Assembly: GCA_030267565.1 (NCBI GenBank)
Contig: BRXU01000002.1
Coordinates: forward strand, 4,401,501-4,465,500
Direction: 5' to 3'
Length of the DNA: 64,000 nt
Source: Pleodorina starrii
Taxonomy: Eukaryota; Chlorophyta; Chlorophyceae; Chlamydomonadales; Volvocaceae
The number at the start of each line of letters is the position of its first letter. The stretch's first letter is position 1. The position numbers and the translations under genes are program-made. Below, in pieces: positions 16,754-61,158 of the stretch. The notes under the pieces were generated by a model. It was not told where the DNA came from. It made no database searches and saw nothing but the letters and a program-made list of their open reading frames with translations.

Positions 16754-18797
16754 ATGGCGCGCCTGGGAGCCCGTCGTCTCCTCCTGGGCCAGATGCCGCT
16801 CCTGCTGCTGGTGCTGGCCGCTGCCTCCGGGATGCGTGCCGCTGAGGTACGCCATCACTCGTAACATGTAACATTATTTGCTTAGTTGAAGGTCGTTTAT
16901 AATTTGTGCGCCTCCATCCTTTTGCCCTGGCTCGGTTCACCAACTCGCTCGTTACGTTGTTACCTTCCTTCCTGCCAGCAGCCAACCTTTTCGGGATCGA
17001 TAAGCCGCTGCGATTGCTTGACATACATACACGGATGTATTAAGTGTCACAGAAAGAAAGAAACTGCATGCTTCGTGGCACTGCATGCTGCAGCCATACA
17101 CGCACGCACGCACGCAGAGGGAGTATGAGAGATTTCGCGAGCTCTCTTCACGCACTTCAAGGCAATTAACTCACTACTCGTGCGCCAATACACCCGCTTG
17201 TCCATGTCCCTGCCCTACATACACGCACCCTTGCTTGCAATGTCGTTCAGGCCGCTCGTAAGAAGTCATCACCCCCGCCCGCCTCCCCGCCTCCGCCTCC
17301 TCCGCCTCCGCCACCGCCGTTAGGTCAGTTTCGCTACGCTACGTACGCGTGTGTCCATGTTTGCTCTTTTGCCCAGCTACGCATTTTCACGTCAGTAAAG
17401 CGCCCGTAACTAACACAGCGCCCTTTTAGCTGCGTCCTAGGTTGGTTGGTTATGCGTGGGGCACGCAGTTGGTCTGCGCACCCGCCCGCCCGGAAGTTCC
17501 CCTCATCATTCCCCACGCAGACACGCGTGTAGCTACTGGACAGTGTTAAATATATAACGGACAGAACAAGTCCTGTCCGTATATATATACTGTGTGCGAA
17601 CAAAAGCGCCGCCCTAGCTAGCGCAGACATTCGCTGCAAGCGTCAGCCACATCATCCCGCATCGATAACGCATGCACGTGGCCCCCCCGCCCGCTTTTTT
17701 GGATGGCGATTTGCGCCCTTATTACGTACTTGATTGCAGACGATCCGCCATTGCCTGCTGAGGCAAAAGAGGTGGACATCGAGCAGTTCCCACCTGAATC
17801 GAAGGCGCCGCCGTCGGAGACAACGCTGGAGGCAGCAGGCAGGTTCGGTTGATCCGCGCGCCATTGAGTACTTCTGCAGCTAAGCCCCCTAGCTACCTAC
17901 TTGGCACGAAGCAAAGTATGCATATCTTACATGTCGTTACGACCGATTACTATTCGATCGAGTAGTGTTTCGATATATATCACTGGAGTATATATGCGAT
18001 ATGGCGGCTGCGAGTCCGTCCATCCGAGCGAGCGACGTGCATGCATGGCACACATCAGATAAATCCGTGAATGTATGTCTTCACTTTTTCGGCGCATGAA
18101 ACATTCACAGTGTAAACTCCGTTGCATTGCATTATTCTCCTGTCACATCAGCATGCCGCAGCTGCGCGCGCGCTCCATAAATATCGGCGCATGTCGATCG
18201 CTCCGCGCGCGCGCGGAAGCATGTATACGAACGAAACCATAGCCTCTTTCGTTACCATACCTAGCTGCGCGTGCTGGCGCTAGTTATGGTGCATGCTTAA
18301 CTCCTTTATCTTAAGATCTTCCTTGCTTATCCTAGCATCGTACACGGTATGTATATATGCACATGCGTCCGCGTAAGAAGCGACATACAATTTACGCACG
18401 CACTGCGTGCGATGGTCATCATTAGTGGCACCTTAGTTGACACTCGAGTCGGGTATAATTTAGCTGCTTGTGCGCGTTTATTCGCTTGCACGTGCAGACC
18501 TTACCGCCGGCAACCGCCCACCAGCTGAAGCCGACTCGCCGCCTCCGCCTCCGCCTCCGCCGCCGCCGCCGTCACCGGCGCTCATCAAGCCAGGTCAGTC
18601 CGTAACGCTACATCCGATTGCGTTCGTTTAAAAAATAACGTATGCGTATGTATGCTATTAACTCGTTATTATTTCCTACGTGCTGCCATTATTTGTCGGT
18701 CAAAGTCGCCGAACCAGCCTTGCGAGCGAGCGACGTACGTATGCCGGCAAACGAAAGAACACCATATATATATAGGGTTTATATATATATATATATA

Positions 18798-18829
<32 letters not shown>

Positions 18830-21800
18830 GGTGTTCTTTCGTTTGCCGGCATACGTACGTCGCTCGCTCGCAAGGCTGGTTCGGCGACTTTGACCGACAA
18901 ATAATGGCAGCACGTAGGAAATAATAACGAGTTAATAGCATATATATATATATATATGCTATTATATATATTATATATATATATATATATAATAGCATAT
19001 ATATATATATGCTATTATATATATATATATATATATATAATGTGCGGCGTAATAATAATGCAATGTATACACTGCTGTATGTATGAATGTATGTAGTGCA
19101 CGCGCTGTTGCAGCAGCTTTATACGTAATTACGTGCTCGCTCACCTGTTGCGTTCGTTACCTGTACGTATGTATGTCTGGTCTTAATTGTGCACGGCTGC
19201 AGAGCTCGCCGCGGCCGCACTGGCTCCTCAGTACTACATTGGTTTTGGCAACTGCCCCAGAAAGATGCAAGACCAGTCGTACGGCAACTGGGAGATGTAC
19301 CGCCCATTTGCTCAGCAGCCAGGCAGCCTCACCCTCTTCCTGGACACCCGCCTCGCGCGCCACGTGGCCAACGCCGCTGGGTCTGTCAAGCCATTGGACT
19401 TCCCCATCACGAACTTGTTCTTCGCCTTCTTTAACACTGCAGCTGTGCAGAAGTACGCCGAGCTGATGGCAACCAAGACCACCTCTATGGAGGCGTCTTC
19501 GTGGTACCGGGTCCACGTGAACGGGGTACAGCAGGGCTCCGTCATGGACATGAAGAATGTGCTGACGCCGCTCAACTTTGCCCCGTCCTCCAACTTCAGC
19601 CTCAAGATAACTCTGAACAGGGGCGCCATAGTGCCGGCATATGACGCCTTCAACATCACCATCTCGAAGAACTGCAGAACCCCATCTTTGTGCGCGACCA
19701 TTCCAGACCCCGCAATCGCGTTCGGATCACCCCTGAGCCATGTGGTATATTCTCTTTGGAGCGTCAACCAGCTGCTCAGCATTGACGGCGCAGCTCCCAG
19801 GGCCGACGCCTGGTGCCCAGTGAAGTCGGCGATTAACGGAAATTGTAGGTGTTTCCGTCGTTATTGCGTGCTAGTTGTGCGTCTTGCTTTCGCTTCCCGA
19901 CAACAATCTGTGCCAGTACGTACCTACCTGAATGAATATGCGAATACATGCCGTTCACCAGCAGTTATCGCAAAGGTCTTTAGACTTCTACGTACCCGCC
20001 GTCCCACCATCCATGCATGGGCCTAGCGAGCCGCTCCGTCCACGCGTAAGTACACTGTCTATCTGTATGACCGTTAATCCGCATCTATCTGCTGACTGCT
20101 GATGATGAATCCCTGCTGTCTCGTTGACGCGCCGCTGCCTCCGTGCATTGCAGTGCCGCAGGTATTGGACCCGGTGTTCATCACTGCAGCTAAGGCGACG
20201 ACGCAACCTCAGTACTACATTGGCTTTGGCAGTTGCCCCAAGAAGATGCAAAACCAGTCGTACGGCAACTGGAAGATGTACCGCCCACCAGCTCAGCAGC
20301 CAGGCAGCCTCACCCTCTACCTGGACACCCTCAACACACGCCACATGGCCGACGCCACCGGAACGGTCTCGCCGCTTGACTTTCCAATCGGGAACATGTA
20401 CTTCGGATACTTCGACACTGCAGCTGTGCAGAAGTACGGCGAGCTGATTGCGAACAAGAACGCCTACAAGGAGGCATCTTCGTGGTACCGGGTCCTCGTG
20501 AACGGCGTACAGCAGGGCTCCGTCGCTGACATGAAGAATGCGCTATCTCCGCTCAACATTGCCCCGTCCGCCAATTTCAGCCTCAAGATATCGCTCAACA
20601 AGGGCGCCATATTTCCTTCGACCAACCTTTTCAAAATAGTCATCTCGAAGAACTGCAAAAACGAGTCCGCGTGCGCCGCCATTCCGGACCCCGCAGTCGC
20701 GTTCGGGTCGCCCCAGGGCCATGTGGTCTACTCCCTGTGGACCGTTGAACAGAGCATGACCATCAACGGCAAGACCTTCGCAAATCACGCCTGGTGCCCA
20801 GTGCAGTCGGCGCTGAACGAGGACGGTGGGTGCGCGCACCGTTTCTTTTAGATAGGATGGATGGATGAAGAATGCAAATGTAGCCGCCTGGGAATAAACA
20901 TCCTACCGCCATGTGCCGCCGTGTGCGTTGATCCGCGTAGAAGTAGCGAGGTTAGATAGGAGCGAAAGCTGTTATTAAGTAGCATACAGCTTCTCCAGTC
21001 CTGCTCAACCCTAGCATTTCGGACTTGGTGCGTGTTAGGTTGGTGCATCAGGGGTGAATACGTATGTTTGCTGTGCACGTCTGCAAGAGCCTCTGAATGG
21101 TGTCCACGCATGTATATATGTATGGCAACGCGCACATACATCGAACGATAGATGGAGGACAATAATGTGCACATAATACGGATATATATAGAGGGTATAT
21201 TCATATATACACGGAATTTTATAACAATTCCAGGCTTCTAATTATTTACCGCTTGAACGAAATATATAAAACTCGCTCACTTACACAAAAAAATTAAACT
21301 GTGAAACGTTGCCCGTTAGTAACGAATTTGGGTCCGCCTCACCTCATAATCTACGTACCTCTGCATCGCACCCTACCCTCTTGCTGCACGTTGCGCAGTT
21401 CCACTTCCCCTTGCAAAGGCAGAGACGACGCAACCCCAGTACTACATTGGCTTTGGCAGTTGCCCCAGGAAGATGCAAAACCAGTCGTACGGCAACTGGA
21501 AGATGTACCGCCCACCAGCTCAGCAGCCAGGCAGCCTCACCCTCTACCTGGACACCCTCAACACACGCCACATGGCCGACGCCACCGGAACGGTCTCGCC
21601 GCTTGACTTTCCAATCGGGAACATGTACTTCGGATACTTCGACACTGCAGCTGTGCAGAAGTACGGCGAGCTGATTGCGAACAAGAACGCCTACAAGGAG
21701 GCATCTTCGTGGTACCGGGTCGTCGTGAACGGCGTACAGCAGGGCTCCGTCGCTGACATGAAGAATGCGCTATCTCCGCTCAACATTGCCCCGTCCGCCA

Positions 21801-24800
21801 ATTTTAGCCTCAAGATATCACTGAACAAGGGCGCCATCTTTCCTTCGACCAACCTTTTCAAAATAGTCATCTCGAAGAACTGCAAAAACGAGTCCGCGTG
21901 CGCCGCCATTCCGGACCCCGCAGTCGCGTTCGGGTCGCCCCAGGGCCATGTGGTCTACTCCCTGTGGACCGTTGAACAGAGCATGACCATCAACGGCAAG
22001 ACCTTCGCAAATCACGCCTGGTGCCCAGTGCAGTCGGCGCTGAACGAGGACGGTGGGTGCGCGCACCGTTTCTTTTAGATAGGATGGATGGATGAAGAAT
22101 GCAAATGTAGCCGCCTGGGAATAAACATCCTACCGCCATGTGCCGCCGTGTGCGTTGATCCGCGTAGAAGTAGCGAGGTTAGATAGGAGCGAAAGCTGTT
22201 ATTAAGTAGCATACAGCTTCTCCAGTCCTGCTCAACCCTAGCATTTCGGACTTGGTGCGTGTTAGGTTGGTGCATCAGGGGTGAATACGTATGTTTGCTG
22301 TGCACGTCTGCAAGAGCCTCTGAATGGTGTCCACGCATGTATATATGTACGGCAACGCGCACATACATCGAACGATAGATGGAGGACAATAATGTGCACA
22401 TAATACGGATATATATAGAGGGTATATTCATATATACACGGAATTTTATAACAATTCCAGGCTTCTAATTATTTACCGCTTGAACGAAATATATAAAACT
22501 CGCTCACTTACACAAAAAAATTAAACTGTGAAACGTTGCCCGTTAGTAACGAATTTGGGTCCGCCTCACCTCATAATCTACGTACCTCTGCATCGCACCC
22601 TACCCTCTTGCTGCACGTTGCGCAGTTCCACTTCCCCTTGCAAAGGCAGAGACGACGCAACCCCAGTACTACATTGGCTTTGGCAGTTGCCCCAGGAAGA
22701 TGCAAAACCAGTCGTACGGCAACTGGAAGATGTACCGCCCACCAGCTCAGCAGCCAGGCAGCCTCACCCTCTACCTGGACACCCTCAACACACGCCACAT
22801 GGCCGACGCCACCGGAACGGTCTCGCCGCTTGACTTTCCAATCGGGAACATGTACTTCGGATACTTCGACACTGCAGCTGTGCAGAAGTACGGCGAGCTG
22901 ATTGCGAACAAGAACGCCTACAAGGAGGCATCTTCGTGGTACCGGGTCGTCGTGAACGGCGTACAGCAGGGCTCCGTCGCTGACATGAAGAATGCGCTAT
23001 CTCCGCTCAACATTGCCCCGTCCGCCAATTTTAGCCTCAAGATATCACTGAACAAGGGCGCCATCTTTCCTTCGACCAACCTTTTCAAAATAGTCATCTC
23101 GAAGAACTGCAAAAACGAGTCCGCGTGCGCCGCCATTCCGGACCCCGCAGTCGCGTTCGGGTCGCCCCAGGGCCATGTGGTCTACTCCCTGTGGACCGTT
23201 GAACAGAGCATGACCATCAACGGCAAGACCTTCGCAAATCACGCCTGGTGCCCAGTGCAGTCGGCGCTGAACGAGGACGGTGGGTGCGCGCACCGTTTCT
23301 TTTAGATAGGATGGATGGATGAAGAATGCAAATGTAGCCGCCTGGGAATAAACATCCTACCGCCATGTGCCGCCGTGTGCGTTGATCCGCGTAGAAGTAG
23401 CGAGGTTAGATAGGAGCGAAAGCTGTTATTAAGTAGCATACAGCTTCTCCAGTCCTGCTCAACCCTAGCATTTCGGACTTGGTGCGTGTTAGGTTGGTGC
23501 ATCAGGGGTGAATACGTATGTTTGCTGTGCACGTCTGCAAGAGCCTCTGAATGGTGTCCACGCATGTATATATGTATGGCAACGCGCACATACATCGAAC
23601 GATAGATGGAGGACAATAATGTGCACATAATACGGATATATATAGAGGGTATATTCATATATACACGGAATTTTATAACAATTCCAGGCTTCTAATTATT
23701 TACCGCTTGAACGAAATATATAAAACTCGCTCACTTACACAAAAAAATTAAACTGTGAAACGTTGCCCGTTAGTAACGAATTTGGGTCCGCCTCACCTCA
23801 TAATCTACGTACCTCTGCATCGCACCCTACCCTCTTGCTGCACGTTGCGCAGTTCCACTTCCCCTTGCAAAGGCAGAGACGACGCAACCCCAGTACTACA
23901 TTGGCTTTGGCAGTTGCCCCAGGAAGATGCAAAACCAGTCGTACGGCAACTGGAAGATGTACCGCCCACCAGCTCAGCAGCCAGGCAGCCTCACCCTCTA
24001 CCTGGACACCCTCAACACACGCCACATGGCCGACGCCACCGGAACGGTCTCGCCGCTTGACTTTCCAATCGGGAACATGTACTTCGGATACTTCGACACT
24101 GCAGCTGTGCAGAAGTACGGCGAGCTGATTGCGAACAAGAACGCCTACAAGGAGGCATCTTCGTGGTACCGGGTCCTCGTGAACGGCGTACAGCAGGGCT
24201 CCGTCGCTGACATGAAGAATGCGCTATCTCCGCTCAACATTGCCCCGTCCGCCAATTTCAGCCTCAAGATATCGCTCAACAAGGGCGCCATATTTCCTTC
24301 GACCAACCTTTTCAAAATAGTCATCTCGAAGAACTGCAAAAACGAGTCCGCGTGCGCCGCCATTCCGGACCCCGCAGTCGCGTTCGGGTCGCCCCAGGGC
24401 CATGTGGTCTACTCCCTGTGGACCGTTGAACAGAGCATGACCATCAACGGCAAGACCTTCGCAAATCACGCCTGGTGCCCAGTGCAGTCGGCGCTGAACG
24501 AGGACGGTGGGTGCGCGCACCGTTTCTTTTAGATAGGATGGATGGATGAAGAATGCAAATGTAGCCGCCTGGGAATAAACATCCTACCGCCATGTGCCGC
24601 CGTGTGCGTTGATCCGCGTAGAAGTAGCGAGGTTAGATAGGAGCGAAAGCTGTTATTAAGTAGCATACAGCTTCTCCAGTCCTGCTCAACCCTAGCATTT
24701 CGGACTTGGTGCGTGTTAGGTTGGTGCATCAGGGGTGAATACGTATGTTTGCTGTGCACGTCTGCAAGAGCCTCTGAATGGTGTCCACGCATGTATATAT

Positions 24801-27800
24801 GTATGGCAACGCGCACATACATCGAACGATAGATGGAGGACAATAATGTGCACATAATACGGATATATATAGAGGGTATATTCATATATACACGGAATTT
24901 TATAACAATTCCAGGCTTCTAATTATTTACCGCTTGAACGAAATATATAAAACTCGCTCACTTACACAAAAAAATTAAACTGTGAAACGTTGCCCGTTAG
25001 TAACGAATTTGGGTCCGCCTCACCTCATAATCTACGTACCTCTGCATCGCACCCTACCCTCTTGCTGCACGTTGCGCAGTTCCACTTCCCCTTGCAAAGG
25101 CAGAGACGACGCAACCCCAGTACTACATTGGCTTTGGCAGTTGCCCCAGGAAGATGCAAAACCAGTCGTACGGCAACTGGAAGATGTACCGCCCACCAGC
25201 TCAGCAGCCAGGCAGCCTCACCCTCTACCTGGACACCCTCAACACACGCCACATGGCCGACGCCACCGGAACGGTCTCGCCGCTTGACTTTCCAATCGGG
25301 AACATGTACTTCGGATACTTCGACACTGCAGCTGTGCAGAAGTACGGCGAGCTGATTGCGAACAAGAACGCCTACAAGGAGGCATCTTCGTGGTACCGGG
25401 TCCTCGTGAACGGCTTACAGCAGGGCTCCGTCGCTGACATGAAGAATGCGCTGTCTCCGCTCAACATTGCCCCGTCCGCCAATTTTAGCCTCAAGATATC
25501 ACTGAACAAGGGCGCCATCTTTCCTTCGACCAACCTTTTCAAAATAGTCATCTCGAAGAACTGCAAAAACGAGTCCGCGTGCGCCGCCATTCCGGACCCC
25601 GCAGTCGCGTTCGGGTCGCCCCAGGGCCATGTGGTCTACTCCCTGTGGACCGTTGAACAGAGCATGACCATCAACGGCAAGACCTTCGCAAATCACGCCT
25701 GGTGCCCAGTGCAGTCGGCGCTGAACGAGGACGGTGGGTGCGCGCACCGTTTCTTTTAGATAGGATGGATGGATGAAGAATGCAAATGTAGCCGCCTGGG
25801 AATAAACATCCTACCGCCATGTGCCGCCGTGTGCGTTGATCCGCGTAGAAGTAGCGAGGTTAGATAGGAGCGAAAGCTGTTATTAAGTAGCATACAGCTT
25901 CTCCAGTCCTGCTCAACCCTAGCATTTCGGACTTGGTGCGTGTTAGGTTGGTGCATCAGGGGTGAATACGTATGTTTGCTGTGCACGTCTGCAAGAGCCT
26001 CTGAATGGTGTCCACGCATGTATATATGTACGGCAACGCGCACATACATCGAACGATAGATGGAGGACAATAATGTGCACATAATACGGATATATATAGA
26101 GGGTATATTCATATATACACGGAATTTTATAACAATTCCAGGCTTCTAATTATTTACCGCTTGAACGAAATATATAAAACTCGCTCACTTACACAAAAAA
26201 ATTAAACTGTGAAACGTTGCCCGTTAGTAACGAATTTGGGTCCGCCTCACCTCATAATCTACGTACCTCTGCATCGCACCCTACCCTCTTGCTGCACGTT
26301 GCGCAGTTCCACTTCCCCTTGCAAAGGCAGAGACGACGCAACCCCAGTACTACATTGGCTTTGGCAGTTGCCCCAGGAAGATGCAAAACCAGTCGTACGG
26401 CAACTGGAAGATGTACCGCCCACCAGCTCAGCAGCCAGGCAGCCTCACCCTCTACCTGGACACCCTCAACACACGCCACATGGCCGACGCCACCGGAACG
26501 GTCTCGCCGCTTGACTTTCCAATCGGGAACATGTACTTCGGATACTTCGACACTGCAGCTGTGCAGAAGTACGGCGAGCTGATTGCGAACAAGAACGCCT
26601 ACAAGGAGGCATCTTCGTGGTACCGGGTCCTCGTGAACGGCGTACAGCAGGGCTCCGTCGCTGACATGAAGAATGCGCTATCTCCGCTCAACATTGCCCC
26701 GTCCGCCAATTTCAGCCTCAAGATATCGCTCAACAAGGGCGCCATATTTCCTTCGACCAACCTTTTCAAAATAGTCATCTCGAAGAACTGCAAAAACGAG
26801 TCCGCGTGCGCCGCCATTCCGGACCCCGCAGTCGCGTTCGGGTCGCCCCAGGGCCATGTGGTCTACTCCCTGTGGACCGTTGAACAGAGCATGACCATCA
26901 ACGGCAAGACCTTCGCAAATCACGCCTGGTGCCCAGTGCAGTCGGCGCTGAACGAGGACGGTGGGTGCGCGCACCGTTTCTTTTAGATAGGATGGATGGA
27001 TGAAGAATGCAAATGTAGCCGCCTGGGAATAAACATCCTACCGCCATGTGCCGCCGTGTGCGTTGATCCGCGTAGAAGTAGCGAGGTTAGATAGGAGCGA
27101 AAGCTGTTATTAAGTAGCATACAGCTTCTCCAGTCCTGCTCAACCCTAGCATTTCGGACTTGGTGCGTGTTAGGTTGGTGCATCAGGGGTGAATACGTAT
27201 GTTTGCTGTGCACGTCTGCAAGAGCCTCTGAATGGTGTCCACGCATGTATATATGTATGGCAACGCGCACATACATCGAACGATAGATGGAGGACAATAA
27301 TGTGCACATAATACGGATATATATAGAGGGTATATTCATATATACACGGAATTTTATAACAATTCCAGGCTTCTAATTATTTACCGCTTGAACGAAATAT
27401 ATAAAACTCGCTCACTTACACAAAAAAATTAAACTGTGAAACGTTGCCCGTTAGTAACGAATTTGGGTCCGCCTCACCTCATAATCTACGTACCTCTGCA
27501 TCGCACCCTACCCTCTTGCTGCACGTTGCGCAGTTCCACTTCCCCTTGCAAAGGCAGAGACGACGCAACCCCAGTACTACATTGGCTTTGGCAGTTGCCC
27601 CAGGAAGATGCAAAACCAGTCGTACGGCAACTGGAAGATGTACCGCCCACCAGCTCAGCAGCCAGGCAGCCTCACCCTCTACCTGGACACCCTCAACACA
27701 CGCCACATGGCCGACGCCACCGGAACGGTCTCGCCGCTTGACTTTCCAATCGGGAACATGTACTTCGGATACTTCGACACTGCAGCTGTGCAGAAGTACG

Positions 27801-34776: not shown

Positions 34777-34945
34777 CCACGCGCTTAACATCGGATGCGA
34801 ATCGCACGCAACATGTGACGTACGTATGTACGTGTAGATCGATGGATTGCATGGGGATTTTAAATTGTATTATCGACTTCCTTGTGCGTCAGCGCCAAAT
34901 ACATGATGAAACATGGTACTGAAGATGAAAAGTAATTATTTACCG

Positions 34946-34950
34946 TGTAA
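34946..34950 (+). terminator. TGTAA polyadenylation signal of gene A
   Basis: TGTAA, the known volvocine polyadenylation signal, lies 170 bp after the stop codon and was not seen in the array introns. Confidence 0.6.
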
Positions 34951-35828
34951 GTTCAGCAACGATTGCGCTGCAAGTTTCTTATTAAGTGCGTGACGACATG
35001 TATGCGAAAGAACAAATTGCGATGCATGCATGAGTGCATGCGCATGGATACATACATTCCTCGTTATGCATCGCAATCTTTGGCTGCTGACTGCATGCGA
35101 ATTTTCGTTTGTGCATTAGCCGGAGTCGAATGTCGCTAGCTTACTTGCATTTCCTTCACCAACTGCGACGTGTTCTTGCTTGGCGCACTTTATTGTGCCT
35201 TTTACGCGCGCGCGATCGGTTTCAACGCCACCGTGCATGCAGCAGTCGCCCTCAAATATGCGGGCCGCGTACATACAGGAGCGCGGTTGCTAGTCGATGC
35301 AAGGACGTTCGTTTATTTGTTAGACGTTTGTTGGACGTAAGTGTGACGTTGATTAGTTGGTGAAAAGGCCGGCTTCATCTCTGTCGTTTGACTTTGCCGG
35401 ACATACAGCGCGCAGCAGATAGGTGTGCAGAAGCCTTTAGTAAGGGAACGACGTTTCCGCCGCACCTCCTGACGCACAGTGCAATTCGACCCGGAGGGAA
35501 TGCATGTACGTACTTTGTTGTATCGTTCCATCTCAGGGTTTCGTGTGCATCTGCACGCTTATTACGTGCACAGCTGGCTAGCTAACTATCTAGCTATATT
35601 GGTGTGTATCTAGGTTGATCGATCGATAGGGCGTTCTCGGTTGCTGCTGCTGGCTAGTCTCAACAGCGGCTCGCAGTACACGCGCACGTTATATATAAGC
35701 CGCGAACAATCTAAACGGCAGCCGCTTACAGGGCATAGGCACTCCAGCAGTGAGAAACCCACCCATACGTACCAGGCAGGGAACAATAGATCTATGTAGG
35801 TAATGCATGCTCTCCTCACCGCAGATTG

Positions 35829-40323: not shown

Positions 40324-40639
40324 TAGGGGTAACGAAAGGTAACCAGCCGTACTACTTGCAGTGGGATGCACAGACATTATTTAAAACGGCGCAAGGCACT
40401 CCTTGCCCTTGTCCTAACACTTTTAAGGGTTAATCACCATACTTGCGACCGCAGCGCTGCTGGTTGTAGCATTGCTAGTCTGGAGCGTGGTGATCCTACC
40501 TGACGGCTTGCCGCGATCAAGCACATATATACTAGTTGAGTTTTTCACCCTTAGGGTTACAAAAATCAGCGGTTAACACGTCTGAGCACTGCGTAAAGCC
40601 CTGAAGGTAGGATTCCTGCGTGCCACATTCCTGTCAAGA

Positions 40640-49600: not shown

Positions 49601-52600
49601 TCAGCAGCCAGGCAGCCTCACCCTCTTCCTGGACACCCTCAACACGCGCCACATGGCCGACGCCACCGGAACTGTCTCGCCGCTTGACTTTCCAATCGGG
49701 AACATGTACTTCGGCTACTTCGACACTGCAGCTGTGCAGAAGTACGGCGACCTGATTGCGAACAAGAACGCTTACAAGGAGGCGTCTTCGTGGTACCGGG
49801 TCACCGTGAACGGGGTACAGCAGGGCTCCGTCGCGGACATGAAGAATGCGCTGTCTCCGCTCAACCTTGCCCCGTCCGCCAATTTCAGCCTCAAGATATC
49901 GCTCAACAAGGGCGCCATCTTTCCTTCGACCAGCCTCTTCAAAATAGTCATCTCGAAGAACTGCAAAAGCGAGTCCGCGTGCGCCGCCATTCCGGACCCC
50001 GCAGTCGCGTTCGGGTCGCCCCAGGGCCATGTGGTCTACTCCCTGTGGACCGTTGAACAGAGCATGACCATCAACGGCAAGACCTTCGCAAATCACGCCT
50101 GGTGCCCCGTGCAGTCGGCGCTCAACCAGGACGGTGGGTGCGCGCACCGTTTATTTATTTTAGGATGGATGAAGCATGCAAATGTAGCCGCCGGAATAAA
50201 CATCCTACCGCCGTGTGCCGCCGTGTGCACTGATCCGCGTATAAGTAGCGAGACTAGGTAGGAGCGAAAGCTGTTATTTCTTACGTAGCGTACAGCTTCT
50301 CCAGTCCTGCTGAACCCTTGCATTTCGGACTTGGTGCGTGTTATTAGGCTGGTGAATTAGGGGTAAATATGTTTGCTGTGCACGTCCGCAAGAGCCTCTG
50401 AATGGTGTCCACGCATGTATGGCAACGCGCACATACATCGAACGATAGATGGAGGACATACAATAATGTGCAAATAATACGGATATATATGCATACTTAT
50501 ACACGGATATATATACGGCGGGTATATTCATATATACACGGAATTTATTTTACATTGGTCTTCAGACAACAATTCCAGGCTTCTAATTATTATATAGCGC
50601 AAGAACGAAACATATAAAACTCGCTCACTTACACAAAAAACGACTAAACTGTGAAACGTTGCCCGTTAGTAACGAATTTGGGTCCGCCTCACCTCTTACG
50701 TAACGTACCACTGCATCTCACCCTACCCTCTTGCTGCACGTTGCGCAGTTCCACCTTCCCTTGCAAAGGCAGAGACGACGCAAGCTCAGTACTACATTGG
50801 CTTTGGCAGCTGCCCCAGGAAGATGCAAAACCAGTCGTACGGCAACTGGAAGATGTACCGCCCAGATGCTCAGCAGCCAGGCAGCCTCACCCTCTTCCTG
50901 GACACCCTCAACACGCGCCACATGGCCGACGCCACCGGAACTGTCTCGCCGCTTGACTTTCCAATCGGGAACATGTACTTCGGCTACTTCGACACTGCAG
51001 CTGTGCAGAAGTACGGCGACCTGATTGCGAACAAGAACGCTTACAAGGAGGCGTCTTCGTGGTACCGGGTCACCGTGAACGGGGTACAGCAGGGCTCCGT
51101 CGCGGACATGAAGAATGCGCTGTCTCCGCTCAACCTTGCCCCGTCCGCCAATTTCAGCCTCAAGATATCGCTCAACAAGGGCGCCATCTTTCCTTCGACC
51201 AGCCTCTTCAAAATAGTCATCTCGAAGAACTGCAAAAGCGAGTCCGCGTGCGCCGCCATTCCGGACCCCGCAGTCGCGTTCGGGTCGCCCCAGGGCCATG
51301 TGGTCTACTCCCTGTGGACCGTTGAACAGAGCATGATCATCAACGGCAAGACCTTCGCAAATCACGCCTGGTGCCCCGTGCAGTCGGCGCTCAACCAGGA
51401 CGGTGGGTGCGCGCACCGTTTATTTATTTTAGGATGGATGAAGCATGCAAATGTAGCCGCCGGAATAGACATCCTACCGCCGTGTGCCGCCGTGTGCACT
51501 GATCCGCGTATAAGTAGCGAGACTAGGTAGGAGCGAAAGCTGTTATTTCTTACGTAGCGTACAGCTTCTCCAGTCCTGCTGAACCCTTGCATTTCGGACT
51601 TGGTGCGTGTTATTAGGCTGGTGAATTAGGGGTAAATATGTTTGCTGTGCACGTCCGCAAGAGCCTCTGAATGGTGTCCACGCATGTATGGCAACGCGCA
51701 CATACATCGAACGATAGATGGAGGACATACAATAATGTGCAAATAATACGGATATATATGCATACTTATACACGGATATATATACGGCGGGTATATTCAT
51801 ATATACACGGAATTTATTTTACATTGGTCTTCAGACAACAATTCCAGGCTTCTAATTATTATATAGCGCAAGAACGAAACATATAAAACTCGCTCACTTA
51901 CACAAAAAACGACTAAACTGTGAAACGTTGCCCGTTAGTAACGAATTTGGGTCCGCCTCACCTCTTACGTAACGTACCACTGCATCTCACCCTACCCTCT
52001 TGCTGCACGTTGCGCAGTTCCACCTTCCCTTGCAAAGGCAGAGACGACGCAAGCTCAGTACTACATTGGCTTTGGCAGCTGCCCCAGGAAGATGCAAAAC
52101 CAGTCGTACGGCAACTGGAAGATGTACCGCCCAGATGCTCAGCAGCCAGGCAGCCTCACCCTCTTCCTGGACACCCTCAACACGCGCCACATGGCCGACG
52201 CCACCGGAACTGTCTCGCCGCTTGACTTTCCAATCGGGAACATGTACTTCGGCTACTTCGACACTGCAGCTGTGCAGAAGTACGGCGACCTGATTGCGAA
52301 CAAGAACGCTTACAAGGAGGCGTCTTCGTGGTACCGGGTCACCGTGAACGGGGTACAGCAGGGCTCCGTCGCGGACATGAAGAATGCGCTGTCTCCGCTC
52401 AACCTTGCCCCGTCCGCCAATTTCAGCCTCAAGATATCGCTCAACAAGGGCGCCATCTTTCCTTCGACCAGCCTCTTCAAAATAGTCATCTCGAAGAACT
52501 GCAAAAGCGAGTCCGCGTGCGCCGCCATTCCGGACCCCGCAGTCGCGTTCGGGTCGCCCCAGGGCCATGTGGTCTACTCCCTGTGGACCGTTGAACAGAG

Positions 52601-55600
52601 CATGATCATCAACGGCAAGACCTTCGCAAATCACGCCTGGTGCCCCGTGCAGTCGGCGCTCAACCAGGACGGTGGGTGCGCGCACCGTTTCTTTATTTTA
52701 GGATGGATGAAGCATGCAAATGTAGCCGCCGGAATAAACATCCTACCGCCGTGTGCCGCCGTGTGCACTGATCCGCGTATAAGTAGCGAGACTAGGTAGG
52801 AGCGAAAGCTGTTATTTCTTACGTAGCGTACAGCTTCTCCAGTCCTGCTGAACCCTTGCATTTCGGACTTGGTGCGTGTTATTAGGCTGGTGAATTAGGG
52901 GTAAATATGTTTGCTGTGCACGTCCGCAAGAGCCTCTGAATGGTGTCCACGCATGTATGGCAACGCGCACATACATCGAACGATAGATGGAGGACATACA
53001 ATAATGTGCAAATAATACGGATATATATGCATACTTATACACGGATATATATACGGCGGGTATATTCATATATACACGGAATTTATTTTACATTGGTCTT
53101 CAGACAACAATTCCAGGCTTCTAATTATTATATAGCGCAAGAACGAAACATATAAAACTCGCTCACTTACACAAAAAACGACTAAACTGTGAAACGTTGC
53201 CCGTTAGTGACGAATTTGGGTCCGCCTCACCTCATACGTAACCTACCACTGCATCTCACCCTACCCTCTTGCTGCACGTTGCGCAGTTCCACCTTCCCTT
53301 GCAAAGGCAGAGACGACGCAAGCTCAGTACTACATTGGCTTTGGCAGCTGCCCCAGGAAGATGCAAAACCAGTCGTACGGCAACTGGAAGATGTACCGCC
53401 CAGATGCTCAGCAGCCAGGCAGCCTCACCCTCTTCCTGGACACCCTCAACACGCGCCACATGGCCGACGCCACCGGAACTGTCTCGCCGCTTGACTTTCC
53501 AATCGGGAACATGTACTTCGGCTACTTCGACACTGCAGCTGTGCAGAAGTACGGCGACCTGATTGCGAACAAGAACGCTTACAAGGAGGCGTCTTCGTGG
53601 TACCGGGTCACCGTGAACGGGGTACAGCAGGGCTCCGTCGCGGACATGAAGAATGCGCTGTCTCCGCTCAACCTTGCCCCGTCCGCCAATTTCAGCCTCA
53701 AGATATCGCTCAACAAGGGCGCCATCTTTCCTTCGACCAGCCTCTTCAAAATAGTCATCTCGAAGAACTGCAAAAGCGAGTCCGCGTGCGCCGCCATTCC
53801 GGACCCCGCAGTCGCGTTCGGGTCGCCCCAGGGCCATGTGGTCTACTCCCTGTGGACCGTTGAACAGAGCATGATCATCAACGGCAAGACCTTCGCAAAT
53901 CACGCCTGGTGCCCCGTGCAGTCGGCGCTCAACCAGGACGGTGGGTGCGCGCACCGTTTCTTTATTTTAGGATGGATGAAGCATGCAAATGTAGCCGCCG
54001 GAATAAACATCCTACCGCCGTGTGCCGCCGTGTGCACTGATCCGCGTATAAGTAGCGAGACTAGGTAGGAGCGAAAGCTGTTATTTCTTACGTAGCGTAC
54101 AGCTTCTCCAGTCCTGCTGAACCCTTGCATTTCGGACTTGGTGCGTGTTATTAGGCTGGTGAATTAGGGGTAAATATGTTTGCTGTGCACGTCCGCAAGA
54201 GCCTCTGAATGGTGTCCACGCATGTATGGCAACGCGCACATACATCGAACGATAGATGGAGGACATACAATAATGTGCAAATAATACGGATATATATATA
54301 TATATATATACTTATACACGGATATATATACGGCGGGTATATTCATATATACACGGAATTTATTTTACATTGGTCTTCAGACAACAATTCCAGGCTTCTA
54401 ATTATTATATAGCGCAAGAACGAAACATATAAAACTCGCTCACTTACACAAAAAACGACTAAACTGTGAAACGTTGCCCGTTAGTAACTAATTTGGGTCC
54501 GCCTCACCTCTTACGTAACGTACCACTGCATCTCACCCTACCCTCTTGCTGCACGTTGCGCAGTTCCACCTTCCCTTGCAAAGGCAGAGACGACGCAAGC
54601 TCAGTACTACATTGGCTTTGGCAGCTGCCCCAGGAAGATGCAAAACCAGTCGTACGGCAACTGGAAGATGTACCGCCCAGATGCTCAGCAGCCAGGCAGC
54701 CTCACCCTCTTCCTGGACACCCTCAACACGCGCCACATGGCCGACGCCACCGGAACTGTCTCGCCGCTTGACTTTCCAATCGGGAACATGTACTTCGGCT
54801 ACTTCGACACTGCAGCTGTGCAGAAGTACGGCGACCTGATTGCGAACAAGAACGCTTACAAGGAGGCGTCTTCGTGGTACCGGGTCACCGTGAACGGGGT
54901 ACAGCAGGGCTCCGTCGCGGACATGAAGAATGCGCTGTCTCCGCTCAACCTTGCCCCGTCCGCCAATTTCAGCCTCAAGATATCGCTCAACAAGGGCGCC
55001 ATCTTTCCTTCGACCAGCCTCTTCAAAATAGTCATCTCGAAGAACTGCAAAAGCGAGTCCGCGTGCGCCGCCATTCCGGACCCCGCAGTCGCGTTCGGGT
55101 CGCCCCAGGGCCATGTGGTCTACTCCCTGTGGACCGTTGAACAGAGCATGATCATCAACGGCAAGACCTTCGCAAATCACGCCTGGTGCCCCGTGCAGTC
55201 GGCGCTCAACCAGGACGGTGGGTGCGCGCACCGTTTCTTTATTTTAGGATGGATGAAGCATGCAAATGTAGCCGCCGGAATAAACATCCTACCGCCGTGT
55301 GCCGCCGTGTGCACTGATCCGCGTATAAGTAGCGAGACTAGGTAGGAGCGAAAGCTGTTATTTCTTACGTAGCGTACAGCTTCTCCAGTCCTGCTGAACC
55401 CTTGCATTTCGGACTTGGTGCGTGTTATTAGGCTGGTGAATTAGGGGTAAATATGTTTGCTGTGCACGTCCGCAAGAGCCTCTGAATGGTGTCCACGCAT
55501 GTATGGCAACGCGCACATACATCGAACGATAGATGGAGGACATACAATAATGTGCAAATAATACGGATATATATATATATATATATACTTATACACGGAT

Positions 55601-58600
55601 ATATATACGGCGGGTATATTCATATATACACGGAATTTATTTTACATTGGTCTTCAGACAACAATTCCAGGCTTCTAATTATTATATAGCGCAAGAACGA
55701 AACATATAAAACTCGCTCACTTACACAAAAAACGACTAAACTGTGAAACGTTGCCCGTTAGTAACTAATTTGGGTCCGCCTCACCTCTTACGTAACGTAC
55801 CACTGCATCTCACCCTACCCTCTTGCTGCACGTTGCGCAGTTCCACCTTCCCTTGCAAAGGCAGAGACGACGCAAGCTCAGTACTACATTGGCTTTGGCA
55901 GCTGCCCCAGGAAGATGCAAAACCAGTCGTACGGCAACTGGAAGATGTACCGCCCAGATGCTCAGCAGCCAGGCAGCCTCACCCTCTTCCTGGACACCCT
56001 CAACACGCGCCACATGGCCGACGCCACCGGAACTGTCTCGCCGCTTGACTTTCCAATCGGGAACATGTACTTCGGCTACTTCGACACTGCAGCTGTGCAG
56101 AAGTACGGCGACCTGATTGCGAACAAGAACGCTTACAAGGAGGCGTCTTCGTGGTACCGGGTCACCGTGAACGGGGTACAGCAGGGCTCCGTCGCGGACA
56201 TGAAGAATGCGCTGTCTCCGCTCAACCTTGCCCCGTCCGCCAATTTCAGCCTCAAGATATCGCTCAACAAGGGCGCCATCTTTCCTTCGACCAGCCTCTT
56301 CAAAATTGTCATCTCGAAGAACTGTAAAAACGAGTCCGCGTGCGCCGCCATTCCGGACCCCGCAGTCGCGTTCGGGTCGCCCCAGGGCCATGTGGTCTAC
56401 TCCCTGTGGACCGTTGAACAGAGCATGACCATCAACGGCAAGACCTTCGCAAATCACGCCTGGTGCCCCGTGCAGTCGGCGCTCAACCAGGACGGTACGT
56501 TTATGAATATACGTGTGTATTATACGGATATATATACGGCGGGTACATTCATACATACACACAAGGAATTTCACATTGGCTTTCAGACAACAATTCCATA
56601 CTTCTAGTTATTTAAATAGAACGAAAAGGATAACACTCGCTCCGTCACTTACACAATATAGATCAAACTGTGAAATGTTAGTTTGCCTTGTTTGCCCGCC
56701 GGTTCGTAACGAATTTGGGTCCTCACCTCACCTCTTACGTAACCTACCACTGCATCTCACCCTGCCCTCTTGCTGCACGTTGCGCAGTTCCACCTTCCCT
56801 TGCAAAGGCAGAGACGACGCAAGCTCAGTACTACGTTGGCTTTGGCAGCTGCAACTCCACGATGCAGAACCAGGCGTTCAGCAACTGGGTCATGTACCGC
56901 CCGCGCACCCAGCAGCAGCCTGGTTCGCTGTCTCTGTTCCTGGACACCCGCAACATGGGCGTCGTGGCCGATGCCACCGGAAATGTGGTGCCGCGCGAGT
57001 TCCCTCTCAACAACATGTACTTCGCTTACTTCAACAACAGAGCGGTACAGAAGCTTGACGAGGCGCTTTCGAACCCGGACACCTACACGCAAACATCTTC
57101 TTGGTACCGGATCCACATCAACGGCAAACGGGTCACAACGGTCATGGACATGAAGAACACGCTTACGGGAGACAGTTCCTCCACGTTCTCCAGGTTTAGC
57201 CTCAAATCAACGCTCAACGGCGTAATCACACCGTCGACCGCCCTCTACAACATCACCATCACCAAGAATTGTGCTACCCCAGTTGCGTGCGCCGCTATCC
57301 CCGAGCCCCTGGACGCCTTCGTCTCGCCGTCTACTGACACTTTGGTCTTCTCGTTCTGGACCGTCAACCAGCCCCTGACCATCAACGGCTTCTACAAAAG
57401 GGACCACGCCTGGTGCCCAGCCAAGGCGGCAGTCAATGTGGACGGTAGGTGCTTGCGTTGTATATCTTTTACTATCAGGTAGCGGAAGATGCCGTGTCAG
57501 CCGTTTTTGGCCCGAATCGTGATCAAGGTTATCGCCCAAAAATCGCCCTACACGGTGTCCTGCACACTAAGGTCTAGAATATAGAATAGGACAATTTTGA
57601 TCGATCGAGCGAGCAAAAACCCATGCTCAGAGGTGCGCGGCGGCTTCGGAAATTGTCAACCAGACACTGCGGGAGCGCGCGACCGGCCCTACGTACGTAT
57701 CCGTCTAGCCGGAACTCGCGCGTGGTAAACCCAAGCGGGGTGTAGGGGGCAAGGGTAGCATGGCGGCGGAGGGGAGGATGGAAGATGGTAATCCAGCAAC
57801 ATAACGAAGGGAATGAAAGAGCGGGGAAGCTAAGCAGAGAGGCGATAGCGCGCACGACTCCCAGTAACTATTTATTTCCTCAGAGCTGCGCGGACTGCCC
57901 GCTGCTGTCATGCTGCTGCGTGCTTTGTTCCTGATTTGCAGCCGTGCCATCGGGCACTCAGCAGCTCGTGAAGGCATGGTCGACAGATCCCCAGTACTAC
58001 ATGGGTTTTGGCAACTGCCCCAGGAAGATGCAAGACCAGTCGTACGGCAACTGGGAGATGTACCGCCCAGATGCTCAGCAGCCAGGCACCCTCACCCTCT
58101 TCCTGGACACCCGCATCCCGCGCCACGTAGCCGACGCCGCTGGGTCTGTCAAGCCAAAGGACTTCCCCATCACGAACTTGTTCTTCGCCTTCTTCAGCAC
58201 TGCAGCTGTGCAGAAGTACGCCGAGCTGATGGCAACCAAGACCACCTCTATGGAGGCGGCTTCCTGGTACCGGGTCCACGTGAACGGGGTGCAGCAGGGC
58301 TCCGTCATGGACATGAAGAATGTGCTGACGCCTCTTAACTTTGCCCCGTCCTCCAACTTCAGCCTCAAGATCACTCTGAACAGGGGCGCCATAGTGCCGC
58401 GATATGACCCCTTCAACATCACCATCTCGAAGAACTGCAGAACCGCATCTTTATGCGCCGCCATTCCGGACCCCGCAATCGCGTTCGGATCACCCCTTGG
58501 CCATGTGGTATTTTCTCTTTGGAGCGTCAACCAGATGCTCAGCATTGACGGCGCAGCTCCCAGGGCCGAAGCCTGGTGCCCAGTGCAGTCGGCGATTAAC

Positions 58601-61158
58601 GGAAACGGTAGGTGGTTCCGTCGTTATTGCGTGCTAGTTGTGCGTCTTGCTTTCGCTTCCCGACATCTCCGATATGCGAATACATGCCGCCGGCGGTGTT
58701 GCTGGTGCACCCCATCTAATACGCATGCACCAGTTACATGTCTATCACCACGCACGGTATGTATTCACCAGCAGTTCGTTACCCCAAGGGGCTTTAGACT
58801 TCTACGTACCCGCCCACCGTCCGGTCTCACCATGGGTCTAGCCAGCCGCTCCGTCCACGCATACATTCTCTGTATGTAGTCACTATGACCGTTAATCCGT
58901 GTCGTCTGCTGACTGCTGAATCCCTGTCTCGTTGTCGCGCCGCTGCCTCCGTGCTTTGTAGTGCCGTCGGTAATGGACCCTATTTTCGTCACTGCGGCAG
59001 TCAATGTGGACGGTAGGTGCTTGTGTTGTATGTCTGTTACTATCATGTAGCGGAAGATGCCGTGTCGGCATTTTCTTGCCCGAATCGTTATCAAAATTAT
59101 CGCCCCACACGGTGCCCTCACGCACATACGTTCTAGCTAGAATATGAATAGGAACAGTAGAGCAAAAATCCTTTCATGCTCTGAGGTGCGCGGCTTCGGA
59201 AATTGTCAACCAGCATCTGAGGGAGCGCGCGGCCGGCCCTAGCATGTGGTAAACCCGCGCGTGGTAACCCCAATCAAGCGGGAGCGAGGTAGGAGGCGAG
59301 GGTAGCGTGGCGGCGGAGGGAAGGATGGAAGATGGTCATTCAGCAAGATAGAGGGGGGAAAGGGGAAGCTGTGGAGAGGCGTTACTCCCAATAACTATTC
59401 ATTTCAGATAGATAGAGGTTCGAGGACTGCTGCTTTAATGTGTGGTGCTTTGTTCTTTGCTCGTTGCAGCCGTGCCACCGCTAGTGAAGGCAGAGACGAC
59501 ACAACCCCAGTACTACATGGGTTTTGGCAACTGCCCCAGGAAGATGCAAGACCAGTCGTACGGCAACTGGCCGATGTACCGCCCACCTGCTCAGCAGCCA
59601 GGCAGCCTCACCCTCTTCCTGGACACCCGCCTCGCGCGCCACGTGGCCAACGCCGCTGGGTCTGTCAAGCCATTGGACTTCCCCATCACGAACTTGTTCT
59701 TCGCCTTCTTCAGCACTGCAGCTGTGCAGAAGTACGCCGAGCTGATGGCAACCAAGACCACCTCTATGGAGGCGGCTTCGTGGTACCGGGTCCACGTGAA
59801 CGGGGTACAGCAGGGCTCCGTCATGGACATGAAGAATGTGCTGACGCCGCTCAACTTTGCCCCGTCCTCCAACTTCAGCCTCAAGATCACTCTGAACAGG
59901 GGCGCCATAGCGCCGGCATATGACGCCTTCAACATCACCATCTCGAAGAACTGCAGAACCCCATCTATGTGCGCGACCATTCCGGACCCCGCAATCGCGT
60001 TCGGATCACCCCTGGGCCATGTGGTATTTTCTCTTTGGAGCGTCAACCAGATGCTCAGCATCGACGGCGCAGCTCCCAGGGCCGAAGCCTGGTGCCCAGT
60101 GCAGTCGGCGATTAACAGAGACTGTAGGTATTTCGTTATAGCATGGCATCAGTTGTGCGTCTTGGTTTCGCTTCCGGACGACTCTGATATGCGAATACAT
60201 GCCGCCGGCGGTGTTGCTGGTGCACCCCCTCTAATACGCATGCAGCAGTCACATGTCTATCACCACGCACGGTATTCACCAGCAGTTCGTTACCCCAAGG
60301 GGCTTTAGACTTCTACGTATCCGCCCACCGTCCGGTCTCACCATGGGCGGCCTAGCTAGCCGCTCCGTCCATCCATACATTCTCTGTATGTAGTCACTAT
60401 GACCGTTAATCCGTATCTGCTGACTGCTGCTGATGAATCCCTGCTGTCTCGTTCACGCGCCGCTGCCTCCGTGCATTGCAGTGCCGGCAGTATTGAACCC
60501 GGTGTTCGTCACTGCAGCTAAGGGGACCACACAACCCCAGTACTACATTGGCTTTGGAAGCTGCGCGAGGAAAATGCAGAACCAGTCATTTGGCAACTGG
60601 AAGATGTACCGCCCGCGTAGCGAGCAGCAAGCTGGCGGCCTCACACTCCGCCTGGACACCCAAAACAGGCGCCACTTCGCCGACGCCACCGGGACTGTCG
60701 TGCCGCGCGACTTCAACGTCACCACCCTGTACTTTGCCTACTTCATGGATAAAGCGGTGATGAGGTTCGATGAGATGGAGGCGAACCCGGCAAGCTACAT
60801 CCAGAGGTCTACCTGGTACAACGTGTTTGTGAACGGTGTGCAGCAGGGCTCGGTCCAAGACATGAAGAACACGCTCAACCCGACCAGCAAAACCCCAACC
60901 GACCATCGGCGCTTCAGCCTCAAGGTGACGCTCAACCGGGGCGCCATTGCGCCGTCGACCCAGCCGTTCGTCATTTCCATCACCAAGAACTGCAGGTTCG
61001 ACTGCGCCATCATTCCAGATCCTTCCAACGCTTTCGTGTCGCCCGATGATCACGTGGTTTACTCCCTGTGGAGCGTCAACCAGGTGCTCAGCATCGACGG
61101 CGCAGCTCCCAGGGACCACGCCTGGTGCCCAGTGCAGTCGGCGATTAATACGCCTTGA
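40640..61158 (+). CDS. Gene B: secreted paralogue with micro-exon stalk and 10 four-cysteine domains
   Basis: Exons: 40640-40732, 41275-41338; 13 micro-exons 41735-41779, 42239-42286, 42640-42687, 43309-43353, 43830-43877, 44515-44559, 45034-45081, 45719-45763, 46237-46284, 46922-46966, 47440-47487, 48121-48165, 48640-48687; 49194-49265; 49492-50133; five 654-bp exons at 50749, 52018, 53287, 54564 and 55841; 56788-57444; 57942-58607; 58962-59012; 59470-60123; 60482-61158. The total is 7,452 nt, one open frame, about 2,483 residues. The signal-peptide exon matches gene A. A 12-proline run follows in exon 2, then a ~202-residue stalk from the micro-exons, another 12-proline exon, and ten domains. 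Exons from the third on are phase 1-1. TGTAA lies 214 bp after the stop. An extracellular-matrix or adhesion role is inferred from architecture. Inclusion of every micro-exon in one mRNA is the least certain point. Confidence 0.75.
40875..40946. other. Hairpin with 20-bp perfect inner arms in gene B intron 1
   Basis: ATGTCTGCGAAGAGAAACAT (40888-40907) and its exact inverse (40918-40937) flank a 10-base loop. CCGTTA/TAACGG pair outside them. It lies in the first intron, soon after the signal-peptide exon. Confidence 0.75.
41735..48687 (+). repeat. Micro-exon array on a ~1,203-bp repeat
   Basis: Two alternating symmetric micro-exons lie in long near-identical introns. Type A (45 bp) encodes ESVGNTPPEAKLESAG or EIVGNTPPEAKLESAG. 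Type B (48 bp) encodes ENNVGNPPPEMALEAAG or GNNVGNPPPEMALEAAG. Order: A B B A B A B A B A B A B. Successive type A exons from the second on are 1199-1206 bp apart, and type B exons from the third on 1200-1204 bp. The two adjacent type B exons are only 401 bp apart, marking a half-unit duplication or deletion. Donors are GTAGGA (A) and GTCAGT (B). The middle type A exons use AAG rather than TAG acceptors. The A and B peptides are themselves related, so an older exon doubling preceded the array. Confidence 0.8.
49194..49265 (+). other. Poly-proline exon of gene B
   Basis: This 72-bp phase 1-1 exon encodes DLTTAEADS, twelve prolines, then VEPG. It matches gene A exon 18498-18593 (DLTAGNRPPAEADS, then prolines), so both genes place this rigid segment directly before the first domain. 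In volvocine walls such runs are typically hydroxylated and glycosylated. Confidence 0.7.
49492..50133 (+). other. Gene B domain exon E1
   Basis: This 214-codon exon starts with the ELAAAPLAPQ linker also used by gene A D1, but its domain body is of the array type (GFGSCPRKM, SSWYRVTVNG). It is therefore a chimera of a D1-type front and an array-type body. Confidence 0.75.
50134..56494. repeat. 1,269/1,277-bp tandem exon+intron array, five copies
   Basis: Five 654-bp exons start at 50749, 52018, 53287, 54564 and 55841. Spacing is 1,269, 1,269, 1,277 and 1,277 bp. The extra 8 bp are TA units added to the intron (GATATATATGCATAC became a longer TA run). Exons differ at single codons such as TING/IING and KSE/KNE. 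The 3' parts of the introns, including AAAACTCGCTCACTTACAC, are shared with the gene A array introns. Confidence 0.9.
56788..57444 (+). other. Gene B domain exon E7 (CNSTM type)
   Basis: This is the counterpart of gene A D12, with near-identical sequence and the same 657-bp length. In gene B it follows the array directly and its upstream intron keeps array-type sequence. Confidence 0.8.
57942..58607 (+). other. Gene B domain exon E8 (GNC type)
   Basis: This 222-codon exon has GFGNCPRKM, SWYRVHVNG, NITISKNC and AWCPV, and its closest relatives are E10 and gene A D1. Its N-terminal linker (VPSGTQQLVKAWSTDPQYY) is unique in the window. Confidence 0.75.
58962..59012 (+). other. Collapsed 51-bp domain exon
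   Basis: The exon encodes PSVMDPIFVTAAVNVDG. Its front is the linker start of a D2/terminal-type exon and its back is the last codons of a CNSTM-type exon. The ~200-residue domain between is missing. The TAG acceptor, GTAGGT donor and phase 1-1 symmetry are intact, so it could still be spliced in frame. Alternatively it is skipped. Confidence 0.6.
59470..60123 (+). other. Gene B domain exon E10 (GNC type)
   Basis: This 218-codon exon joins an array-like linker (VKAETTQPQYY) to a GNC-type body with NITISKNC. It is another front/body chimera and closely matches gene A D1 in the body. Confidence 0.75.
60482..61158 (+). other. Gene B terminal domain exon E11
   Basis: The linker VLNPVFVTAAKGTTQ is as in gene A D2. 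The body is diverged (GFGSCARKM, RSTWYNVFVNG, ITKNCRFDCAIIPDP) with only three residues between the middle cysteines. It ends HAWCPVQSAINTP and TGA. Confidence 0.8.

Follow-up and report, generated by a model that had tools for sequence, protein, structure and literature searches.

Two neighbouring genes built from copies of one cysteine-containing domain lie on the forward strand of the window, the 64,000-nucleotide stretch of DNA analysed here (C2:4401501-4465500). The parts of both genes follow the same order, in which a signal peptide precedes poly-Pro, one or more acidic linkers, further poly-Pro and the domains (Table 1). By exon assembly, gene 1 encodes a signal peptide, a proline-rich and acidic N-terminal region and 13 domains, and gene 2 encodes a signal peptide, poly-Pro, 13 micro-exons, poly-Pro and 10 domains. 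A preliminary description of this DNA had proposed paired genes sharing a signal-peptide exon, poly-Pro exons in both, 13 and 10 domain copies, and summed exon lengths that are multiples of three. All four points hold: the signal-peptide exons are identical at 29 of 31 residues, each gene has two poly-Pro exons, the coding totals of 8961 and 7401 nt are divisible by three with no internal stop, and the domain counts are those of the motif scan given below. The earlier exon picture of gene 2 was incomplete in that it missed the 13-member micro-exon array.

Table 1. Features of the two genes (positions in the window)
Feature	Position	Strand	Remarks
Gene 1	16754..34776	+	17 exons, CDS 8961 nt, 2986 aa; exon assembly, internal stops = 0
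Gene 1 exon 1, signal-peptide-like	16754..16846	+	exon assembly
Gene 1 exon 2, poly-Pro	17251..17323	+	exon assembly
Gene 1 exon 3, acidic linker	17740..17838	+	GC donor; alternative GT donor after 17847, same phase
Gene 1 exon 4, poly-Pro	18498..18593	+	exon assembly
Gene 1 domain 1, type C	19203..19844	+	splice-site check, tree
Gene 1 domain 2, type A body	20154..20825	+	linker end and upstream intron like gene 2 domain 10; probably chimeric exon
Array of 1227-bp exon+intron units, domains 2-11	20197..31900	+	tenth unit stops after 661 bp; 11 variable columns
Gene 1 domain 3, type A	21399..22052	+	
Gene 1 domain 4, type A	22626..23279	+	
Gene 1 domain 5, type A	23853..24506	+	
Gene 1 domain 6, type A	25080..25733	+	
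Gene 1 domain 7, type A	26307..26960	+	
Gene 1 domain 8, type A	27534..28187	+	
Gene 1 domain 9, type A	28761..29414	+	
Gene 1 domain 10, type A	29988..30641	+	
Gene 1 domain 11, type A	31215..31868	+	
Gene 1 domain 12, type B	32499..33155	+	splice-site check, tree
Gene 1 domain 13, with Ser/Pro-rich linker and stop codon	34034..34776	+	
Gene 2	40640..61158	+	26 exons, CDS 7401 nt, 2466 aa; exon assembly, internal stops = 0
Gene 2 exon 1, signal-peptide-like	40640..40732	+	exon assembly
Gene 2 exon 2, poly-Pro	41275..41338	+	exon assembly
Gene 2 micro-exon array	41735..48687	+	13 exons of 45 or 48 nt; exon assembly
Gene 2 micro-exon starts	41735, 42239, 42640, 43309, 43830, 44515, 45034, 45719, 46237, 46922, 47440, 48121, 48640	+	
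Gene 2 exon 16, poly-Pro	49194..49265	+	exon assembly
Gene 2 domain 1, type A	49492..50133	+	
Gene 2 domain 2, type A	50749..51402	+	
Gene 2 domain 3, type A	52018..52671	+	
Gene 2 domain 4, type A	53287..53940	+	
Gene 2 domain 5, type A	54564..55217	+	
Gene 2 domain 6, type A	55841..56494	+	
Gene 2 domain 7, type B	56788..57444	+	splice-site check, tree
Gene 2 domain 8, type C	57942..58607	+	close to gene 1 domain 1
Gene 2 domain 9, type C	59470..60123	+	close to gene 1 domain 1
Gene 2 domain 10, terminal type, with stop codon	60482..61158	+	

The exon structure of the two genes is highly regular. Every exon from exon 2 through the penultimate ends in phase 1, and internal exons are multiples of three except exon 2, at which the phase passes from 0 to 1; all exons from exon 3 through the penultimate are consequently of phase 1-1. 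The modelled introns are GT-AG in 40 of 41 cases, the exception being intron 3 of gene 1, which is GC-AG as modelled and becomes GT-AG, with unchanged phase, when exon 3 is lengthened by 9 nt. Each of the 23 domain exons has an in-phase AG acceptor, an in-phase GT donor is present wherever one is required (21 exons), and the splice sites of the arrays are identical from unit to unit. Many domain exons carry a second in-phase AG ~24 nt downstream, the use of which would only shorten the linker.

Scanning all six frames for QYYxGFGxC reveals 23 matches, all on the forward strand, with 13 starts at 19229-34147 and 10 at 49518-60538, and WCP[VA] follows each of them. The domain is ~204 residues long, with cysteines at about positions 9, 149, 155 and 196 conserved in 23 of 23 copies; all cysteines of the two products (52 in gene 1, 40 in gene 2) lie inside domains. 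The links between domains are 15-21 residues long in 20 of 21 cases, and a Ser/Pro-rich link of 40 residues precedes domain 13 of gene 1. The predicted products have masses of 325 kDa (gene 1) and 267 kDa (gene 2) and contain 39 and 21 N-glycosylation sequons, respectively. The signal peptides were judged by eye from the hydrophobic core. Beyond residue 41, the highest 19-residue hydrophobicity scores are 1.21 and 1.23, and hence no membrane anchor is apparent. In the signal-peptide-like exon (called by eye) and the two poly-Pro exons of each gene, the products agree at the sequence level with volvocine hydroxyproline-rich glycoproteins in the broad sense; the rods are short, as proline makes up 8.5% of the whole protein in both genes. 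Exon assembly and domain scan agree on modular, signal-peptide-bearing proteins of one repeated domain, as had been proposed.

Both genes have seemingly been lengthened very recently by whole-exon duplication. In gene 1, a unit of 1227 bp consisting of a domain exon and a 573-bp intron occurs ten times in succession, and the variable columns among the ten units number 9 in the exon and 2 in the intron. Self-alignment shifted by one unit extends over 10,477 bp at 99.58% identity, far beyond chance. Linkage among seven of the exon columns defines three haplotypes, arranged along the array as P V V P Q P Q V V Q (labels assigned here). Such a mosaic points to several rounds of unequal exchange and makes a single, simple duplication in the assembly less likely, while the unit count itself is not proved by it. 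The micro-exons of gene 2 encode linkers of the NTPPEAKLESA or NPPPEMALEAA type, and the ~1203-bp units of their array show neighbour identities of 99.2, 99.8 and 98.3% in three comparisons. Unequal crossing-over or conversion between exon-plus-intron units would alter the length of a gene, and the gain or loss of units would be tolerated because phase-1 exons preserve the frame.

The relationships among domains cut across the two genes. A midpoint-rooted tree of the 20 distinct sequences among the 29 domains of the genome (9 identical rows dropped) contains subtypes that span both genes rather than splitting by gene. Type A comprises domains 2-11 of gene 1 and 1-6 of gene 2, type B domain 12 of gene 1 and 7 of gene 2, and type C domain 1 of gene 1 and 8-9 of gene 2; domain 13 of gene 1 and the copies at C2:6.55 Mb have no firm placement, and the copies on contigs C4 and C16 are set apart under this rooting. 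Between-gene dS is 0.12-0.13 for type A (two pairs), 0.18 for type B and 0.036-0.09 for type C, and such variation points to subtypes of different age, as would arise from conversion or shuffling. Among the 13 pairs for which dN/dS was computed, between-gene values of 0.17 and 0.20 (type A) and 0.19 (type B) show constraint, as read from codon changes, on type A and B copies. Copies of type C show weaker or unclear constraint, with dN/dS of 0.51-0.89 on few changes, as do comparisons across subtypes (0.27-0.44); inside the gene 1 array the value is 0.58 on three changes. For type A, identity between the genes is 95.3% in exons and 93.7% in introns, the latter with 78 gap columns, so recency or conversion also contributes to the likeness, besides constraint. 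Positions 19226-19901 of gene 1 match gene 2 at 94.8% (59505-60179) and 94.5% (57988-58665). Domain 2 of gene 1 is probably a chimeric exon with a start like that of gene 2 domain 10, since 19954-20382 matches 60275-60713 at 81% identity and the two domains have a common linker (LPQVLDPVFITAAK, LPAVLNPVFVTAAK).

The domain is represented at three further loci of the 136-Mb genome (95 contigs), which harbors 29 copies. Besides the 23 of the window, C2:6.55 Mb has two, C4:3.62-3.63 Mb three and C16 one. A thirtieth row, at E 4.84, was taken as chance. These paralogous loci are treated as candidate genes with provisional exon borders. A Ser/Pro-rich stretch leads in frame into each of the four single copies (C4, three; C16, one), and a signal-peptide-like start lies before one of those on C4. 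Within C2:6550500-6560000, at about 854-3478, nine similar poly-Pro frames, mostly in 339-bp units of which six are 99-100% alike, stand before two domain exons, and more poly-Pro frames lie further upstream. Domain exons, micro-exons and poly-Pro frames are thus each amplified at some locus, so that different modules of one family have been amplified in the genome. The search for prokaryotic and viral relatives confirmed none among 22 pattern stretches in viral contigs and 41 in genome contigs; each scan used two short peptide patterns and could therefore miss distant relatives.

The remainder of the window contains several smaller features. Intron 4 of gene 1 harbors an inverted repeat (18647-18946) with 128-nt arms that are 99% complementary and that looks like a recent foldback. 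Between the genes, 39344-40121 is bounded by 75-nt inverted repeats, 85% complementary and 628 nt apart, with a related arm at 37308-37348; the element may be a small DNA transposon. Frames 4146-4847 and 6058-6525 weakly match separate parts of the Pkinase domain, at E 0.0029 and 0.00056 and below the Pfam cut-off, and are probably exons of one kinase gene. A 156-bp unit occurs twice in tandem at 2972-3284 with 94% matches. The G+C content per 2-kb step is 0.60-0.74 in 1-12000 and 0.47-0.57 in 12001-64000. No tRNA genes were found in the window by a search run with the bacterial code.

Assignment of the domain to a family relied on profile and sequence comparison, and the earlier impression that it belongs to no named family is borne out for the libraries tested. 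No credible match was detected in Pfam, in hmmscan runs with seven domain exons (E up to 10) and 15 members (E up to 1), or in NCBIfam or PDB sequences. MCP-like_PDC_1, TAT_ubiq, Zona_pellucida, DUF4183, PDZ_3 and DUF3013 each matched one of the 15 members at E 0.02-0.17 and were attributed to chance, as were PDB sequences at E 0.34, 1.1 and 1.7; the weak Pfam rows given with a cut-off all fall under it. The domain appears new relative to these three libraries. Among the papers listed by a literature search covering few subscription papers, none was recognised from its title or abstract opening as describing it. The Peptidase M11 domain PF05548 marks the Volvox-type matrix metalloprotease (PMC10066295) and is absent from the families matched by the 15 members at E up to 1.

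Pherophorins, which contain two DUF3707/PF12499 domains separated by a variable hydroxyproline-rich region (PMC10066295), are the nearest known system in setting and architecture. Both are volvocine-type proteins with a signal peptide, proline-rich rods and cysteine-containing globular domains, and pherophorins are abundant in this genome, with 157 PF12499 domain matches as compared with none in 14 control genomes; the genome was accordingly taken as that of a volvocine-type green alga. Two of these matches, C3:2306707-2306973 and C13:1094798-1095229, lie in frames of 5421 and 2846 codons, which are either giant pherophorins or long low-complexity frames. It is unlikely that the domain is a highly diverged DUF3707 and the two genes giant pherophorins with changed cysteines. 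In favor of such an origin, the C-terminal half presents, in an informal comparison by eye, the same order of VNG, LK..LN, ITI..C, a second C, YSLW/YALF and WCP/CCP, and an architecture of proline-rich rod and globular domain is present in the same genome. However, DUF3707 was matched by none of seven domain exons (E up to 10) and none of 15 members (E up to 1) in hmmscan. The hhalign probability against pherophorin was 0.1% with eight domains and at best 0.6% with sets of 12 and 24, and unfiltered hmmsearch, with sets of 15 and 24 sequences, gave best E values of 0.27 and 0.098 in the two directions, the match at 0.098 aligning regions other than the correspondence seen by eye. A PDB profile search at E up to 1 returned no pherophorin structure. 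The cysteine patterns also differ, with four per ~204 residues here and nine invariant in ~150 residues in eight aligned pherophorin domains, and the poly-Pro exons precede 13 and 10 domains rather than joining two. As the profile tests detect no DUF3707 domain, where a pherophorin requires at least two, membership by sequence was rejected, and the two genes are not recognisable pherophorins, in line with the preliminary description, which found the cysteine number and spacing unlike the pherophorin pattern.

Structural modeling hints at a beta-sandwich fold. Structure prediction, which had been suggested as a check, gave a mainly beta fold at low confidence: two AlphaFold2 models computed from window sequences only have mean pLDDT values of 59.7 and 56.6 and pTM values of 0.63 and 0.65, and the term beta domain is tentative as both models are weak. 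In VIA-align second looks with these weak models, eight of the best ten rows of each are CBM3, CBM6 or CBM35 at Z of at most 4.4, a weak resemblance of predicted fold only to these carbohydrate-binding modules.

The two genes are interpreted, with a probability of about 0.6, as encoding giant secreted matrix glycoproteins that combine a signal peptide, polyproline rods and strings of separately folding, disulfide-stabilised, mainly beta domains. Each gene would yield one pre-mRNA. The proteins would be secreted into the extracellular matrix, the polyproline rods would be hydroxylated and glycosylated, and the conserved cysteines would form disulfides. The domains, linked by ~15 residues, would act as a long multivalent spacer or binding ladder. 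The preliminary description had offered modular extracellular-matrix or adhesion glycoproteins; the modular part and the signal peptide stand, and the matrix part, where we infer the location, is backed by proline-rich paralogues and the abundance of pherophorin matches. A role as adhesins in cell-cell or gamete recognition, instead of structural matrix, is decidedly unlikely: long strings of many domains that are secreted and turn over their units rapidly would suit adhesins, as would sequence exchange between neighbouring genes, but no hydrophobic segment exceeds 1.23 after the signal peptide, the gene models contain no head domain distinct from the repeats, and the paralogues resemble wall proteins of rod and domain.

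The arrays might instead serve splicing choice, with symmetric exons skipped or included to give many protein lengths per gene. Uniform 1-1 phase means that any subset of exons from exon 3 to the penultimate keeps the frame, and the splice sites are the same between units; however, near-identical exons provide little sequence diversity and tandem duplication equally requires phase symmetry, which makes this explanation improbable. Modular animal-type proteins are likewise built of symmetric class 1-1 exons. The genes described here resemble them in exon phase, in having one domain per exon and in tandem duplication; they differ in that the domain belongs to no named family tested and the gene 1 units are almost identical, introns included.

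In Chlamydomonas-type algae, TGTAA serves as the poly(A) word. In introns thinned by removal of array copies, sense TGTAA occurs twice in gene 1 (4478 b) vs 5.8 expected, with 18 of 300 shuffles as low, and is absent from gene 2 (6351 b) vs 8.8 expected, with 0 of 300 as low. Antisense counts are 4 vs 5.1 expected and 10 vs 8.1. Pooled, 2 sense sites are seen for 14.6 expected and 14 antisense for 13.2, counts that are partly dependent because some remaining introns are still similar. Across all introns, copies included, the sense and antisense counts are 2 and 12 in gene 1 and 0 and 24 in gene 2; outside the genes they are 8 and 11 in 34777-40639, 4 and 6 in 12001-16753, and 3 and 1 in 61159-64000. 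Past the two stop codons, TGTAA occurs at +170 and +214. This pattern supports two long pre-mRNAs, one per gene. As a counterweight to the reading as matrix glycoproteins, depletion is modest in gene 1 taken alone, with residual sense sites in introns 1 and 3, constraint is weaker or unclear for type C and across subtypes, and ~99% identity between neighbours contrasts with the values reported for mammalian domains. In the open frame running into each domain exon, 21 of 23 have no in-frame upstream ATG, the exceptions being gene 1 domain 2 and gene 2 domain 10. Together with the sense depletion and the closed phase-1 chain, this makes many separate short transcripts, the case against the genes that the preliminary description had named, appear unlikely. 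It is very improbable that the tract is decayed, consists of many short genes or arose as an artefact of assembly: the number of near-identical units is difficult to establish in an assembly, two domain exons do have an upstream ATG and leader exons within introns could escape an ATG check limited to the entry frame, but neither exon chain has an internal stop, the other domain exons lack such an ATG, TGTAA is depleted on the sense strand only, and a haplotype mosaic runs along the gene 1 array.

In its working, the nearest analogue of the family is the class of bacterial Periscope Proteins. These contain tandem repeats of more than 50 residues with high coding-sequence identity, and changes in their length by recombination have been proposed (PMC9704523). 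Gene 1, with 11 variable columns of 1227 in ten units, has repeats of this kind, and in both systems secreted or surface proteins contain strings of domains that are near-identical in DNA sequence. The genes described here are not bacterial surface proteins, given intron-containing models in a genome with pherophorin domains; they are eukaryotic and intron-bearing, so that the repeat unit is an exon plus an intron, and one genome is considered here. In mammalian proteins, neighbouring domains share 30-40% identity and very similar ones tend to misfold (PMC9704523), and a ~99%-identical array of ten domains therefore stands out for a eukaryotic protein. Tentatively, and with more doubt than confidence, the family may be a eukaryotic, intron-containing counterpart of Periscope Proteins built on a new domain, in which recombination would set a strain-dependent copy number that adjusts the thickness of the matrix or the valency of binding. 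On this reading, the amplified modules differ from gene to gene, with domain exons in genes 1 and 2, linker micro-exons in gene 2 and polyproline exons at C2:6.55 Mb.

Evolution of the matrix and, with it, of multicellularity is studied in volvocine algae as the standard model, and the papers considered here centre on pherophorins and matrix metalloproteases. If the interpretation as matrix glycoproteins is true, the two genes would represent a second kind of modular matrix component, in which a domain family of its own is combined with similar proline-rich rods and exon-amplified into proteins of 267-325 kDa. Their recent, near-identical arrays appear to show protein lengthening in progress, and provide a test of the rule that adjacent domains need diverged sequences if misfolding is to be avoided.
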